DNA of 64,000 nt from Rhodanobacter panaciterrae (GCF_014651895.1 NZ_BMXT01000001.1:744001-808000); one strand, 5' to 3'; positions 50,022 through 55,176 are shown, counted from the first letter of the stretch. The notes: a model not told the origin generated them from the letters alone. Numbers and translations are program-made.

Positions 50022-50386
50022 TCAGGCTTCGGCCAGGCTGCCGCTCTCGGTATCGGCAATGACCCGATTGCGTCCGGCGCGCTTGGCGCGATAGAGCGCC
50101 GCATCCGCTTCCATGCAAAGCCGTTGCAGCTGGTAGCCGGAAGTGTCGGTGGAGGCCAGGCCGACGCTGGCGGAAATCGATATGACACAGTCGTCTTTTT
50201 CCATCGGCGATGTGCCGATGGCGATCCGGATGCGATTGGCGATATCCAAGCCCTGCTTGCGGGAGCACTCGTGCAGCAGGATGCCGAATTCTTCGCCGCC
50301 CAGACGGCCGAAGAAGAATGAAGAATGCTGTTCTGCTTGCTGAGTTCTTCGGTTGCCAGCTTCATGGTCAGAACCAGTAGTTGCAT
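50022..50386 (-). pseudogene. Remnant of TPR-GGDEF gene of borosin locus 1
   Basis: The first part encodes EELSKQNSIL, matching EELGKQNSIL of the intact 52054-53835 protein, and then jumps directly to LGGEEFGILLHECS and continues to the C-terminus (YRAKRAGRNRVIADTE). About 130 residues, including the membrane helix and half the GGDEF domain, are deleted, and the join shifts the frame (the two halves read in different frames). All upstream TPR sequence is gone as well. The tail is close to identical to the intact copy, so the decay is recent. Confidence 0.9.
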
Positions 50387-50450: not shown

Positions 50451-50486
50451 AAAGCAAAAGGCCATGGCCGCAAAGCGGCCATGGCC
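50451..50486 (-). terminator. Strong rho-independent terminator after borosin precursor 1
   Basis: On the minus strand GGCCATGGCCGC, loop TTT, GCGGCCATGGCC is followed by TTTTGCTTT. It lies 105 bases after the precursor 1 stop and cuts the GGDEF remnant off from the transcript. Confidence 0.85.
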
Positions 50487-50590: not shown

Positions 50591-50809
50591 TTAATCCTCG
50601 TCGCCCCAAAAAAACTGAGTATGAGGGGCATATATCTTCTTTTGTCCGAGTTCGTCGGCTAAGAGTGAACTGTCACCAGACAAGGTGGCGGCTTTGAGTG
50701 CACTTGATGCATCTACCTGTTCTAACGTATGTGCAAGCACATCGGTCGAAGCATAACGCAGTGTAGCGTTTTGGCCGATGGCATCCAGCAGTTCAATCGT
50801 GTCTAACAT
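50591..50809 (-). CDS. Borosin-type precursor peptide 1 (SonA-like leader)
   Basis: A peptide of 72 residues; ATG 50809 follows AGGAGAAGC. The leader (1-55) has LLDAIGQNATLR near 7-18 and SGDSSLLADELG at 44-55, resembling the binding domain of the split-borosin precursor SonA (GQDA motif, then GD...L..L.G). It shares 38 of the first 55 residues with precursor 2. The tail, GQKKIYAPHTQFFWGDED (55-72), is the likely core and is hydrophobic with FFW. The adjacent methyltransferase (51004-51831) is the probable modifying enzyme. The core boundary and methylated residues are not known. Confidence 0.8.
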   Translation of the reverse strand: MLDTIELLDAIGQNATLRYASTDVLAHTLEQVDASSALKAATLSGDSSLLADELGQKKIYAPHTQFFWGDED

Positions 50810-50886
50810 ATGCTTCTCCTGTTCTATGTGACCTTCAAACATCAGGTTGATGCGAGTTGTAAGCCGAATCAAGTGAGCATTGACTT

Positions 50887-50915
50887 AATAAAACATCATG
50901 ACAGTAGTTATCAAC
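50887..50915 (-). promoter_or_regulatory. Predicted promoter of borosin precursor 1
   Basis: On the minus strand TTGATA, 17 bases, TTATTA, ending 78 bases before the precursor start. The same geometry (TTGATG, 17, TATCAA at 77 bases) is kept in locus 2, although most surrounding intergenic sequence has drifted. Confidence 0.5.
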
Positions 50916-51003
50916 ATGTATTGATTGAAGCGTCATCATGGTCCCGCTTTCCTGTCACGCGCCTCGCGCAGACGGGGCCCCACTTCCTTGTTTCTGTATC
51001 AGT

Positions 51004-51831
51004 TCAAGCGATGGAATATTCCTTGTCCAAGTCCGCCAATCGCTCACGCATGGCGAGATTTGGCTTCAAGGGTGAAGCGGGAGCCAGTATCACCGTCTCT
51101 TCCGCGGTCAATGTGACGTCGGGCAAATCGCGCAGGACGATACGGTGAATTCTTGGCTTCTGGATCGGCAAGGTGGCACAGCGATAGATGATCACTTCGT
51201 GATCAAGCGGATAGTCTTTGCTCAAGAGATCCACCAGCACCTGCCGGTACGCTGGCCCGGTGGAAAAGCGCTTCAACGACAAGTCACCGACTAGCCCGAC
51301 CTGCCACAGGATCAGGTATCCGGTGGGATCGATTCGGCGCTCATAGAAAAGCAGCTGGCTGGCCTCGAAGTGCTGACATCCGAAGCGGCCCGGGTCGATG
51401 CCCAGATCGGCATAGAGACAGTCTTCGGCGGAAATGCCCGGTTCCATGTGCGCTGCGAAACCCTCGGCACGCGCGACCTCGATGACCTTGTGTGGCGACC
51501 AAGCGAAGATACCGGGGTGACCATAGAACACGCCGCAAACCTTCTTGCCGGCACGCACCTCGAACATCATCAGATCGACCCATTGCTGATACGTAATCCT
51601 CCTCGACTTGCCCTCAGCGTAGTAGGACTGCAAGCTGCGCACATCTGGATGCATGCGTTGCAGCCACATCTCCACGGTACCATCGGAAAGTGCCGCAAAT
51701 ACCACGTCCGCCTGCTCGATATGGCTGCGTGCCAGCGGAGTGAGGTGAGAGCCTAAGGTCATGCCCATGCCCACGCACGCCAGGCTGCCTCGTTGGGCGT
51801 CATTTGAAGTACGGAGAATAAGTTTGCTCAT
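51004..51831 (-). CDS. Borosin-type peptide backbone alpha-N-methyltransferase 1
   Basis: A protein of 275 residues of the tetrapyrrole methylase fold. It contains ACVGMGMTLGSHLTPLAR, FYGHPGIFAWSPHKV and PGISAEDCLYADLGIDPG, hallmarks of borosin methyltransferases. The four catalytic residues of OphMA (Y66, R72, Y76, Y98) correspond to Y71, R77, Y81 and Y103 with identical spacing. Unlike OphMA there is no fused peptide, so it is the split (SonM-like) form acting on the small peptide encoded 194 bases downstream. It uses SAM to methylate amide nitrogens of the core. It is very similar to the second copy at 54349. Confidence 0.85.
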   Translation of the reverse strand: MSKLILRTSNDAQRGSLACVGMGMTLGSHLTPLARSHIEQADVVFAALSDGTVEMWLQRMHPDVRSLQSYYAEGKSRRITYQQWVDLMMFEVRAGKKVCGVFYGHPGIFAWSPHKVIEVARAEGFAAHMEPGISAEDCLYADLGIDPGRFGCQHFEASQLLFYERRIDPTGYLILWQVGLVGDLSLKRFSTGPAYRQVLVDLLSKDYPLDHEVIIYRCATLPIQKPRIHRIVLRDLPDVTLTAEETVILAPASPLKPNLAMRERLADLDKEYSIA

Positions 51832-52053
51832 GCTTAGGATAGTAGTGAATATTCAACTTAGAAGGGAAGCCGTTGTAGCTAATTAGTTGGCCAGAGTGGC
51901 CTGCAATCCTTTTCACCAGATTGACGGCAGTCAATACCGAAATGTGGTTTGCCGTGTTGCAGTGCATGCATCGAAGCGTCGGCGAATCGACGTGGATAAG
52001 TTGCAAGCGCCAACCGCTGGTGGCGCGTTGACTCTAACTTGCACATTGACCTT

Positions 52054-53835
52054 TCAGGCCTCGACCAGGCTGTCGTTCTCAGTATCGGCGATGACCCGAT
52101 TGCGTCCGGCGCGCTTGGCGCGATAGAGCGCCGCATCCGCTTCCATGCAAAGCCGTTGCAGCTGATAGCCGGAAGTGTCGGTGGAGGCCAGGCCGACGCT
52201 GGCGGAAATCGATATGACATCCCCGTCTTTTTCCATCGGCGATGCGCCGATGGCGATCCGGATGCGATTGGCGATATCCATGCCCTGCTCGCGGGAGCAC
52301 TCGTGCAGCAGAATGCCGAATTCCTCGCCACCCAGACGGCCAAACAAGTCGGCGGGGCGCAATTGTTGCTGGCAGACAGCGACGGTGCGCCTCAGTACGG
52401 CATCGCCCATGGCGTGGCCATGGGTATCGTTGACCTGCTTGAAGTGATCCAGGTCGATGGATACCAGGCAGGCATGGCCGAACTTCTTCTGCAGCACATT
52501 CAGGACGCGCTCGGCCTCGCCGATGAAATGCTGATGGTTGAAAATGCCGGTGAGGCTGTCGTGATGGGACAGCCGCTTGAAGCCAAGCTGCGAGCGCTTG
52601 AGCCGGTAAAGCCAAAGTACGATGAATCCGAACGCCGCCAGCAACAGGATGATATAGAGCCGACTGGTCTCGACGGCCTTGGTGTCCAGTGCCTGTTGCA
52701 ATCGAAGAATACTGTTCTGCTTGCCGAGTTCTTCGGTTTCGAGCTTGTGGGTCAGGACTTGCTGCTGGACTGTTTGATAGGCCAATGCCTGAGCAGTGGC
52801 ATCATCGAGCGAGCCCTTGTCCTGGGCGACATAATGCTCGTAGTAGGCAAGCGCGGAAGTCGTGTTGCCGTGCCGCTTCGCGACGCGGTAGAGCACCTCA
52901 TAGGCATCCTTGAGATAGTCGTTGATGTCGTCCGGGCTGGCCATCGCCACGGCCGCGAGCGCGGCCTTCCGGGCGTCTTCGTCTTTACCTAGCTGTTCAT
53001 ACGCCTGAGCTCGCTGCACCTGCGCGGATAGCGTGTGCGGGTAGTAATGGTTGACCTGGATGCCAGGTGCTATCTGGTCGAGCAGCGACAATGTTTTGGC
53101 AGGCTGGTGTTCTTCGAGGTGGAGGGTGCCAAGGATGAGCTGCATGGCTGTTGCCACGATGGGCTGTCGAGACGCTTCGCACGTATCGATGGCCTGCTTC
53201 AGTTCCGGGCTGGAAGAAGTCAGCCGCTTGGCGTTCCAGAGCGCGGCAACCAGCTTGGAGCGCGGGTAGCACGAGGTCATGCCTGGAGGAACGGCGTCCT
53301 CCATCATGTGGGCGTACTTGATCGCCAGATCCGTCTGTCCGGCCAAGTTCAACACCTGCGACAGGTAGCCGAGGACTTGGAGGCGGACTGTCTTGTCCTG
53401 AATCCGGGGCAGGTCGATCGTGAGCTGTTGAGTCAGCTTGAAGGCGTCTTCGTAGCGACGACCGACCGCCAGGTTGTTCATGAGAAGTGCCGATGCCTTG
53501 GCGGCTAGCATCGGATCGCCCGAATGATCGATCACATCGCGCAGCGGCTGCTCCGCGGCGACGTATTTGCCATCCAGCGAAGACTCAAGTGCATCGAGAT
53601 AGCGCAGGTGCCATTGGTCGGCTGTGCTAAGCGTGGGCGACTCGCGGTGGATTTGCTCCAGCCGTTGGATGAACTGCCGGTGGTCCTTGATGCGCAGGCT
53701 TTCGGTTTGATCGAGGAATGCGCTTGCGTCGCTAATCTTGGCTGTGTCGGCGGCGTAGTTTGCCTGCATCAGGGCGCAGAGAAGCAGGCCCGCCAAAGCG
53801 GTTCCCGGTCCCCTGCGTTGCCGGCCGATGGACAT
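52054..53835 (-). CDS. TPR-GGDEF membrane diguanylate cyclase of borosin locus 2
   Basis: A protein of 593 residues. Signal peptide (core 13-27), a periplasmic helical TPR-like sensor (about 30-370), a coiled coil, one membrane helix (about 402-420, IILLLAAFGFIVLWLY) and a GGDEF domain. The active site GGEEF is at 502-506 and the I-site RPAD lies five residues before, so product inhibition is kept. It starts 11 bases after the precursor 2 stop, so it is in the same transcript. A truncated relic occupies the same place in locus 1. The link between a RiPP and c-di-GMP synthesis is unusual; it may sense the peptide or export state (speculative). Confidence 0.9.
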   Translation of the reverse strand: MSIGRQRRGPGTALAGLLLCALMQANYAADTAKISDASAFLDQTESLRIKDHRQFIQRLEQIHRESPTLSTADQWHLRYLDALESSLDGKYVAAEQPLRDVIDHSGDPMLAAKASALLMNNLAVGRRYEDAFKLTQQLTIDLPRIQDKTVRLQVLGYLSQVLNLAGQTDLAIKYAHMMEDAVPPGMTSCYPRSKLVAALWNAKRLTSSSPELKQAIDTCEASRQPIVATAMQLILGTLHLEEHQPAKTLSLLDQIAPGIQVNHYYPHTLSAQVQRAQAYEQLGKDEDARKAALAAVAMASPDDINDYLKDAYEVLYRVAKRHGNTTSALAYYEHYVAQDKGSLDDATAQALAYQTVQQQVLTHKLETEELGKQNSILRLQQALDTKAVETSRLYIILLLAAFGFIVLWLYRLKRSQLGFKRLSHHDSLTGIFNHQHFIGEAERVLNVLQKKFGHACLVSIDLDHFKQVNDTHGHAMGDAVLRRTVAVCQQQLRPADLFGRLGGEEFGILLHECSREQGMDIANRIRIAIGASPMEKDGDVISISASVGLASTDTSGYQLQRLCMEADAALYRAKRAGRNRVIADTENDSLVEA

Positions 53836-53846
53836 AGGGCGTGAAA

Positions 53847-54149
53847 CTACTGTTTGTGCGGCTTGTGGTGATCGGGTTCAGATGGATGATGCGGCTTGTG
53901 GTCGCCGTCATGGTGCTCCTCCTCTTCCTCCTCTTCCTCATGCCCCGGCGCATTGGTGATCTGAGGTGCATGATTCGGCTTGTGCCCGAGTTCTTCGAAC
54001 AGAAGCGAGCTGTCGCCAGCAGCGACGGCTGACTTGAGCGCTTCGGACGCTTTTGCCTGTTCGAGGATGGGCGCAAGCTCGTCGGCGGATGCATGGCGCA
54101 GCGTGGCGTCCTGGCCAATCGCATTCAGCAACTCAATCGTGTCTGACAT
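53847..54149 (-). CDS. Borosin-type precursor peptide 2 with acidic/His-rich tail
   Basis: A peptide of 100 residues; ATG 54149 follows GGGGAAAA. The leader (1-55) has LLNAIGQDATLR and AAGDSSLLFEELG, closely matching precursor 1 and the SonA pattern. After APQITNAPG (61-69) the tail is extreme: eight Glu in a row (71-78) followed by a His/Asp/Pro/Lys-rich stretch with 10 His in the last 22 residues, like a metal-binding tail. The core is probably the APQITN region, in the same place as APHTQFFW in precursor 1. The methyltransferase gene lies 199 bases upstream. Confidence 0.8.
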   Translation of the reverse strand: MSDTIELLNAIGQDATLRHASADELAPILEQAKASEALKSAVAAGDSSLLFEELGHKPNHAPQITNAPGHEEEEEEEEHHDGDHKPHHPSEPDHHKPHKQ

Positions 54150-54225
54150 GTGTTTTCCCCTGTTCCCCGTGATTTTCAAGCATCAGGTTGATGCGGATTG
54201 CAAGCCGGGCCATGCGGCCATGGGC

Positions 54226-54254
54226 TTGATAAACATCATAACGGCGGTCATCAA
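54226..54254 (-). promoter_or_regulatory. Predicted promoter of borosin precursor 2
   Basis: On the minus strand TTGATG, 17 bases, TATCAA, ending 77 bases before the start. Conserved in place and spacing with locus 1. A separate promoter would let the peptide be made in excess of the enzyme. Confidence 0.5.
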
Positions 54255-54348
54255 TATTTGACGATCAAACGGCGCGCCATCGAAACTCTGTTTCCCCTGT
54301 GATGCGCCATGTATGGAAGGCTGCACTCCTTCGTTACCCATGTTTGTT

Positions 54349-55176
54349 TCAAGCGACGGAATATGCCTTGTCCAGCTCCATCAACCGTTCACGCATGGCT
54401 AGATTCAGCTTCAAAGGCGCGGCTGGAGGCAGTACCACCGTTTCCTCTGCGGTCAATGTAGCGTTGGGTAAATCACGCAGCACGATACGGTGGATGCGTG
54501 GTTTCTGGATCGGCAAGGTGACGCCGCGGTAGATGATCACTTCGTGGTCGAGCGGATAGTCCTGGCTCAGCACGTCCACCAGGACCTGTCGATACGCTGG
54601 CCCGGTGGAAAAGCGCTTCAACGACAAGTCGCCGACCAGCCCGACCTGCCACAGGATCAGATAGCCGGTGGGATCGATGCGGCGCTCATAGAAAAGCAGC
54701 TGGCTGGCTTCGAAGTGCTGGCAACCGAGGCGGCCGGGATCGATGCCAAGATCGGCGTAGAGACAGTCTTCGGCGGAAATACCCGGTTCCATGTGCGCTG
54801 CGAAACCCTCCGCACGCGCAACTTCGATGACCTTGTGCGGCGACCAGGCGAAGATGCCGGGATGGCCGTAGAACACTCCGCAGACCTTCTTGCCGGCACG
54901 CACCTCGGTCATCATCAGCTCGACCCACTGCCGATACGTGACCATCCTCGACTTGCCCTCCGCGTAGTAGGGCTGGAGGCTGCGCACATCAGGATGCATG
55001 CGCTGCAGCCACAGCTCCACGATGCCATCGGAAAGCGCGGCAAATACCACGTCCGCCTGCTCGATATGGCTGCGTGCCAGCGGGGTGAGGTGGGAGCCCA
55101 GGGTCATGCCCATGCCGACGCAGGCCAGGCTGCCGCGCGGGGTGTCGTTCGATGGCGGGGTAGTCAATGTGTCCAT
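54349..55176 (-). CDS. Borosin-type peptide backbone alpha-N-methyltransferase 2
   Basis: A protein of 275 residues; ATG 55176 (MDTLTTPPSN) is used. It is near-identical in the catalytic body to the 51004 enzyme and keeps Y71, R77, Y81, Y103 plus YGHPGIF and ISAEDCLYADLGIDPG. The two enzymes differ mostly in the first dozen residues and in scattered positions. It belongs to a three-gene unit with precursor 2 and the TPR-GGDEF gene. Assigned by fold motifs; the alternative, a corrin/porphyrin methylase, is unlikely because there are no tetrapyrrole genes around. Confidence 0.85.
   Translation of the reverse strand: MDTLTTPPSNDTPRGSLACVGMGMTLGSHLTPLARSHIEQADVVFAALSDGIVELWLQRMHPDVRSLQPYYAEGKSRMVTYRQWVELMMTEVRAGKKVCGVFYGHPGIFAWSPHKVIEVARAEGFAAHMEPGISAEDCLYADLGIDPGRLGCQHFEASQLLFYERRIDPTGYLILWQVGLVGDLSLKRFSTGPAYRQVLVDVLSQDYPLDHEVIIYRGVTLPIQKPRIHRIVLRDLPNATLTAEETVVLPPAAPLKLNLAMRERLMELDKAYSVA

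Follow-up and report, generated by a model that had tools for sequence, protein, structure and literature searches.

The window analysed here, that is, the whole stretch of 64,000 nt from Rhodanobacter panaciterrae (GCF_014651895.1 NZ_BMXT01000001.1:744001-808000, with coordinates counted from its first letter), contains two methyltransferase genes that each precede a small peptide gene, as a first-pass annotation of the same DNA had proposed. All four ORFs were found where it had located them. They lie on the minus strand, where transcription reaches each methyltransferase before its peptide gene, and the nearly equal gaps were confirmed at 199 and 194 nt. The elements that it had not included are a TPR-GGDEF gene (52054-53835), a truncated GGDEF copy (50022-50374) and a third borosin locus situated outside the window. 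In order of transcription, the features in the window are:

54349..55176, minus strand: MT-A, predicted SonM-type peptide backbone alpha-N-methyltransferase, 275 aa (PF00590 fold; SonM homology)
54150..54348, minus strand: spacer from MT-A to precursor A, 199 nt, inside the duplicated segment of 80% identity and homologous to the unit B spacer
53847..54149, minus strand: precursor A, 100 aa (SonA leader profile match; core conservation)
52054..53835, minus strand: TPR-GGDEF membrane protein, predicted diguanylate cyclase, 593 aa (Pfam GGDEF 1e-38; AF2 model)
51004..51831, minus strand: MT-B, second predicted SonM-type methyltransferase, 275 aa (SonM homology; sister of MT-A)
50810..51003, minus strand: spacer from MT-B to precursor B, 194 nt, within the duplicated segment
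50591..50809, minus strand: precursor B, 72 aa, with a SonA-like leader and a short core IYAPHTQFFWGDED, without the long acidic tail
50460..50486, minus strand: terminator-like hairpin downstream of precursor B, a 12-bp stem with 10 GC pairs followed by TTTTGCTTTA
50022..50374, minus strand: truncated GGDEF gene copy, after the second pair

The hairpin is a consensus match only, terminator matches as a class showing no excess over shuffled sequences, and sigma-70 promoter matches were not in excess over shuffles either. A search of the 194- and 199-nt spacers for riboswitches or structured RNAs gave no Rfam match above the gathering score.

MT-A is 51% identical to SonM, and both enzymes are about 50% identical to it; SonM and SonA form the type IV split-borosin system of Shewanella oneidensis, which was published as a natural-product pathway (PMC8429565). 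Between themselves MT-A and MT-B share 89% identity. When MT-B was compared with PDB sequences by phmmer (E ≤ 0.001), SonM came first (E = 1e-77), followed by OphMA, dbOphMA and MroMA, and all 25 sequences matched were borosin enzymes, with no other PDB protein among them. In Pfam both enzymes fall in the broad TP_methylase family (PF00590), and the NCBIfam tetrapyrrole equivalogs scored far below their cut-offs (29.8 bits against 525 at best; 23.4 against 259.65 for cobM_cbiF). On these two grounds the enzymes are placed with borosin enzymes rather than with tetrapyrrole methylases, a comparison on which the borosin assignment had been staked beforehand. That they could be tetrapyrrole (corrin/porphyrin) methylases, as the PF00590 match might suggest, is extremely improbable, since borosin enzymes share the TP_methylase fold family, they alone were matched in PDB at that threshold, the equivalog models score so poorly and a SonA-like substrate gene adjoins.

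The catalytic set Y71/R77/Y81/Y103, which the first-pass annotation had mapped from OphMA, was recovered in both enzymes from the SonM side as well: SonM Y58, R67, Y71 and Y93 map to these positions. Furthermore, F109 and W176, corresponding to the ‘bottom lock’ of SonM (F99/W166), are kept in both, and Y71, R77, Y81, Y103, F109 and W176 are all found unchanged in every one of 84 related enzymes. Their SonM counterparts (Y58, R67, Y71, Y93, F99 and W166) matter for that enzyme, as judged by mutation or structure (PMC8429565). The methyltransferases and precursors are encoded by separate genes, the enzymes have a SonM/OphMA-type domain with the Y-R-Y-Y set, and the leader is predicted to be made of five helices. 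Judged from their sequences, MT-A and MT-B are type IV split-borosin enzymes, and the duplicated Rhodanobacter genes very probably make backbone-methylated peptides, i.e. split borosins. OphMA-type fungal borosins have a homologous methyltransferase domain in which the Y-R-Y-Y set is identically spaced, but there the substrate is fused to the enzyme, whereas it is a separate gene in Rhodanobacter.

The SonA-like GQ(D/N)A leaders proposed for the two peptides proved to be real, being part of a domain that matches SonA by profile search (E = 9.6e-12); the leader profile was built from twelve precursors and searched against PDB, and the SonA match spans the leader. Precursor A comprises a leader (residues 1-54), a conserved core register APQITNAPGH and a long acidic and His-rich tail. 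Five helices (3-13, 15-19, 22-31, 36-44 and 47-54) were predicted for precursor A, the same number as described for the leader of SonA, and the remainder is disordered. With a model so small and half disordered, Foldseek matched SonA weakly (E 7.8); the sequence profile, rather than Foldseek, is the usable evidence for the relation to SonA. Precursor B alone gave no match in PDB by phmmer. In a core alignment anchored on glycine 55, P62-Q63-x-x-Q66 was conserved, in the same register as SonA L63 and I65, the two residues that SonM methylates (PMC8429565). The predicted methylation of the Rhodanobacter precursors has good sequence support, and would be expected in the core around residues 63-66. 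The core itself differs from that of SonA ((A)PQxxQ instead of YLVIS), as does the long acidic tail of precursor A. No Sec signal was evident in the precursors.

The best explanation for the second pair is that unit B is a tandem duplicate of unit A from which the sensor has been lost. The duplicated segment extends from the methyltransferase through the leader, 55152-53962 aligning to 51807-50622 at 80% DNA identity, and this duplication accounts for the near-equal gaps. MT-A and MT-B are sisters (support 98/92) in a tree that was made without 24 sequences whose N-terminus missed the trimming pattern, fused enzymes among them, and whose bootstrap had not settled. Their dS of 0.54 is about the divergence of congeneric species, and their dN/dS of 0.12 indicates that both copies have been retained under purifying selection; for the leaders of precursors A and B the dN/dS is 0.18. 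As for the second GGDEF gene, its 3′ end alone survives, in two pieces (50022-50316, 93.6% identical to 52054-52348, and 50320-50374, 85% identical to 52704-52758). This surviving end has a dS of 0.13, younger than the rest of the duplication, which suggests a later gene conversion. The truncation of this copy, the longer branch of MT-B (0.11 versus 0.038) and the lower GC3 of MT-B and precursor B could also be taken to mean that unit B is decaying and without function. We consider this improbable, given that both frames are intact with every catalytic residue retained, that the dN/dS values of enzymes and leaders are low at such a dS, and that intact short-core extra precursors exist in other genera (L072, L080, L104).

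At least one methyltransferase of this kind occurs in 43 of the 45 Rhodanobacter genomes, and the close tandem pair in this one only. The third borosin locus (G000:C1:847505-851180, or L004:7491-11181), about 48 kb from the tandem pair in this genome, contains a methyltransferase, two precursors and a TPR-GGDEF gene, the enzyme belonging to a separate paralogue clade (99/93). Of the two pathways that the first-pass annotation had envisaged, the borosin identity stands but the count of two enzymes and two peptides does not, as the genome has three methyltransferases and four precursors. The precursors of the third locus have Pro-rich cores (VPPGPPGPPGP), and the locus stands directly behind an NfeD gene and an SPFH/band-7 gene.

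The sensor gene of unit A begins 11 nt after precursor A, and its product is predicted to consist of a signal peptide, a TPR superhelix (~33-321; ~320 residues), a TM helix (~390-410) and a GGDEF domain (423-585). The AF2 model (pLDDT 88) shows the TPR superhelix followed by a long helix, of which the hydrophobic stretch is a part, and by the GGDEF domain, which resembles SadC (Z 26.3). The RLGGEEF motif is invariant in 36 sensor homologues, and of 119 homologues 117 have an intact GG(D/E)EF and 99 the inhibitory RxxD site; by these motifs the GGDEF domain is catalytically complete and the protein a predicted diguanylate cyclase. Two cysteines in the TPR domain, C189 and C219, are also invariant in 36 homologues, from Rhodanobacter to Alteromonas, and possibly form a periplasmic disulfide. 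A hydrophobic N-terminus ending in ALMQANYA and a TM-like helix before the GGDEF domain, both read by eye from sequence and model, predict that the TPR domain is exported and make a cytoplasmic location unlikely. In structure this domain aligns with Rap-Phr pheromone receptors (8rsv, Z 23.0; 4i9c, Z 22.9; 311 residues), an unrelated TPR protein, APPBP2, being equal at Z 23.0, and by profile it matches RapF (E 3e-5) and AimR (4e-4), with eukaryotic TPR proteins matching as well as RapF. In its own genome, full-length homologues of the sensor were found only at two borosin loci; the other matches, the truncated copy aside, are confined to the GGDEF domain and the stretch leading up to it.

Comparative evidence gives good support to the view that the TPR-GGDEF protein is a dedicated borosin partner. 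In an independent genome collection, the TPR-GGDEF gene was found with the methyltransferase in 72 of 73 related loci, and methyltransferase, precursor and TPR-GGDEF were the only genes conserved throughout them. No exporter, protease or other tailoring gene was conserved in the operon across these 73 loci, and no resistance, export or maturation gene was conserved beside them. Among 147 genomes of the family, 94 have both the methyltransferase and the TPR protein and 52 have neither, the single exception being a TPR profile match at a contig end without the methyltransferase; moreover, within several genera the two are absent jointly. Loci of SonM orthologues (65-81% identity), which presumably belong to Shewanella, have the order methyltransferase, SonA, TPR-GGDEF. 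Three genomes, all from one genus, encode a fusion in which the methyltransferase follows on from the end of the GGDEF protein. Finally, at four more distant loci a TPR-histidine kinase replaces TPR-GGDEF beside SonM-like enzymes, with receiver domains in three of the four:

L122:7383-10631, TPR-histidine kinase locus
L142:7564-10419, TPR-histidine kinase locus
L149:8060-10132, TPR-histidine kinase locus
L150:7251-10319, TPR-histidine kinase locus

Since the histidine kinase stands in place of the GGDEF domain, the TPR front end is the constant part and the output exchangeable.

Some loci depart from the common layout in other ways. L149 has two tandem methyltransferases. In Arsukibacterium a GNAT acetyltransferase gene lies between methyltransferase and precursor, similar genes being found at nine loci in total. 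SonM-like enzymes with 38% identity to SonM adjoin a major-facilitator-type transporter, without a TPR sensor (L124:6462-8496 and L125:3734-5767), and orphan TPR-GGDEF genes with no precursor or methyltransferase detected nearby exist at L152, L153 and L157, in genomes that have borosin loci elsewhere.

The precursor is closely tied to the sensor. The gap between the two genes has a median of 12 nt and is at most 60 nt in 97 of 99 cases; several loci (L155, L158, L159, L127 and L107) have two or three precursor-sensor pairs with a single methyltransferase, and L156 has a precursor-sensor pair with no methyltransferase in 9 kb. Sensor-adjacent precursors, with their long tails, contain a median of 11 acidic residues versus 3 in extra precursors, a pattern seen in 10 of the 11 loci having both. 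Precursor B is of the tail-less extra type, which is also represented by six precursors of Luteibacter dw_328. In a partial Mantel analysis, divergence of the core was associated with divergence of the TPR part after removal of the GGDEF component (partial r = 0.36, 1/1000 permutations; 0.03 for the reverse), a result to which phylogeny and faster TPR evolution may contribute.

The gene content of the multi-precursor loci varies considerably. Luteibacter sp. dw_328 (L072:6885-9144) has seven consecutive precursors behind one methyltransferase, six with short FF/FL-type cores and the last, sensor-adjacent one alone with an acidic tail, and in L155:4221-16120 one methyltransferase lies amid five TPR-GGDEF genes and three precursors. 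The core motif occurs twice (CCLLVPAQVRCLLVPGINDEDE) in the first precursors of L081, L117, L127, L158 and L159, which are extras of the third-locus type, and this suggests tandem cores within one precursor.

We lean towards reading the locus as a cassette of peptide signal and receptor, where a backbone-N-methylated peptide would control a TPR-gated diguanylate cyclase and unit B would be a sensor-less duplicate; that such peptide genes are accompanied by a membrane sensor of their own in many bacteria points to a signalling role for the peptides more than to one as simple antibiotics. That is, the SonM-type enzyme would bind the helical leader of the precursor and methylate backbone amides around residues 63-66, the register that SonM uses on SonA, a step for which the homology is strong. 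The precursor would act with a membrane protein made up of an exported TPR superhelix, a TM helix and a cytoplasmic diguanylate cyclase, for which the comparative evidence is strong, the exported superhelix being coupled in other lineages to a histidine kinase instead. The methylated peptide, either processed and exported or membrane-permeant, may then be the ligand bound by the TPR domain, such that the cell would respond to its own peptide by altering c-di-GMP, as happens in cassettes of a peptide pheromone and its receptor. From unit B would come a further, short-core peptide that has no receptor of its own. Against a receptor role, TPR folds are generic, as the matches to APPBP2 and to eukaryotic TPR proteins illustrate. 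Furthermore, there is no evident route for a cytoplasmic peptide to an exported TPR domain, because the precursors have no evident Sec signal and the operon lacks a conserved exporter or protease. In the fusion proteins the methyltransferase follows the GGDEF domain and is therefore likely on the cytoplasmic side, which is thus the side that the precursor would meet first.

Alternatively, the genes could make a conventional split-borosin product, e.g. an antimicrobial or metal-related one, while the TPR-GGDEF protein or kinase would sense an unrelated envelope or surface cue and tie production to the biofilm state. Growth-state control is common in secondary metabolism, and the orphan TPR-GGDEF genes without a precursor (L152, L153 and L157) would be in keeping with this. 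So would the description of SonM/SonA as a natural-product pathway (PMC8429565). However, resistance, export and maturation genes are not conserved alongside, and it is the precursor, not the methyltransferase, that persists and multiplies with the sensor; we regard this explanation as rather unlikely. It is doubtful, too, that nothing is secreted and that the unprocessed, acidic-tailed precursor regulates from within the cell, its methylation state modulating a membrane-located enzyme (cyclase, kinase or methyltransferase). Such a role would agree with the absence of an export signal and transporter, with the GGDEF-methyltransferase fusion and with the long acidic tails of sensor-adjacent precursors, but what is conserved in the partner is the TPR domain, for which a signal peptide predicts export, and a kinase can replace the GGDEF domain.

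Read as a signal-receptor cassette, the system is reminiscent of Rap-Phr/AimR (RRNPP) pairs, in which a peptide gene also adjoins a TPR protein with a similar superhelix (Z ~23, a score that other TPR proteins equal) and pairs multiply as cassettes. RRNPP receptors are cytoplasmic proteins that bind a re-imported peptide, whereas the TPR domain of the borosin loci is predicted to be exported and anchored in the membrane, its output being a GGDEF domain or, at some loci, a histidine kinase, and the peptide is predicted to be backbone-methylated. With SonM/SonA the system shares the encoding of methyltransferase and BBD-leader precursor by separate genes, enzymes that are about 50% identical, the same mechanistic residues and, at SonM orthologue loci, a TPR-GGDEF gene directly downstream; the tandem duplication, the third locus and the lack of a sensor in unit B set Rhodanobacter apart. 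In RcbAB of Vibrio vulnificus a GGDEF domain is under the control of the TPR domain joined to it; according to the available part of the source, the TPR domain of RcbB represses the GGDEF domain, the partner is another TPR protein, and neither a methyltransferase nor a precursor peptide is described (PMC12282931). Split borosins are already known, and the tandem loci alone would be a further example. The literature searched, in a search that was incomplete, contained no report that connects borosins to signalling, to a histidine kinase or to a TPR receptor. A figure legend in one paper names GGDEF in some borosin architecture (PMC11395268), and priority for the borosin-GGDEF link is uncertain.

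More broadly, and more tentatively than for the locus itself, type IV split borosins might represent a form of Gram-negative peptide signalling, made up of a ribosomal, backbone-N-methylated pheromone, a dedicated periplasmic TPR receptor and an exchangeable output (diguanylate cyclase or histidine kinase), while extra precursors would act as additional or decoy signals. It is the conserved sensor with its exchangeable output that makes peptide signalling a hypothesis worth testing for this system. The Rhodanobacter genome has three enzymes, four precursors and two sensors and would be a compact setting in which to study specificity and cross-talk, and a dedicated sensor that co-occurs, co-duplicates and fuses with the pathway offers a hypothesis on the function of the peptides that can be tested directly.
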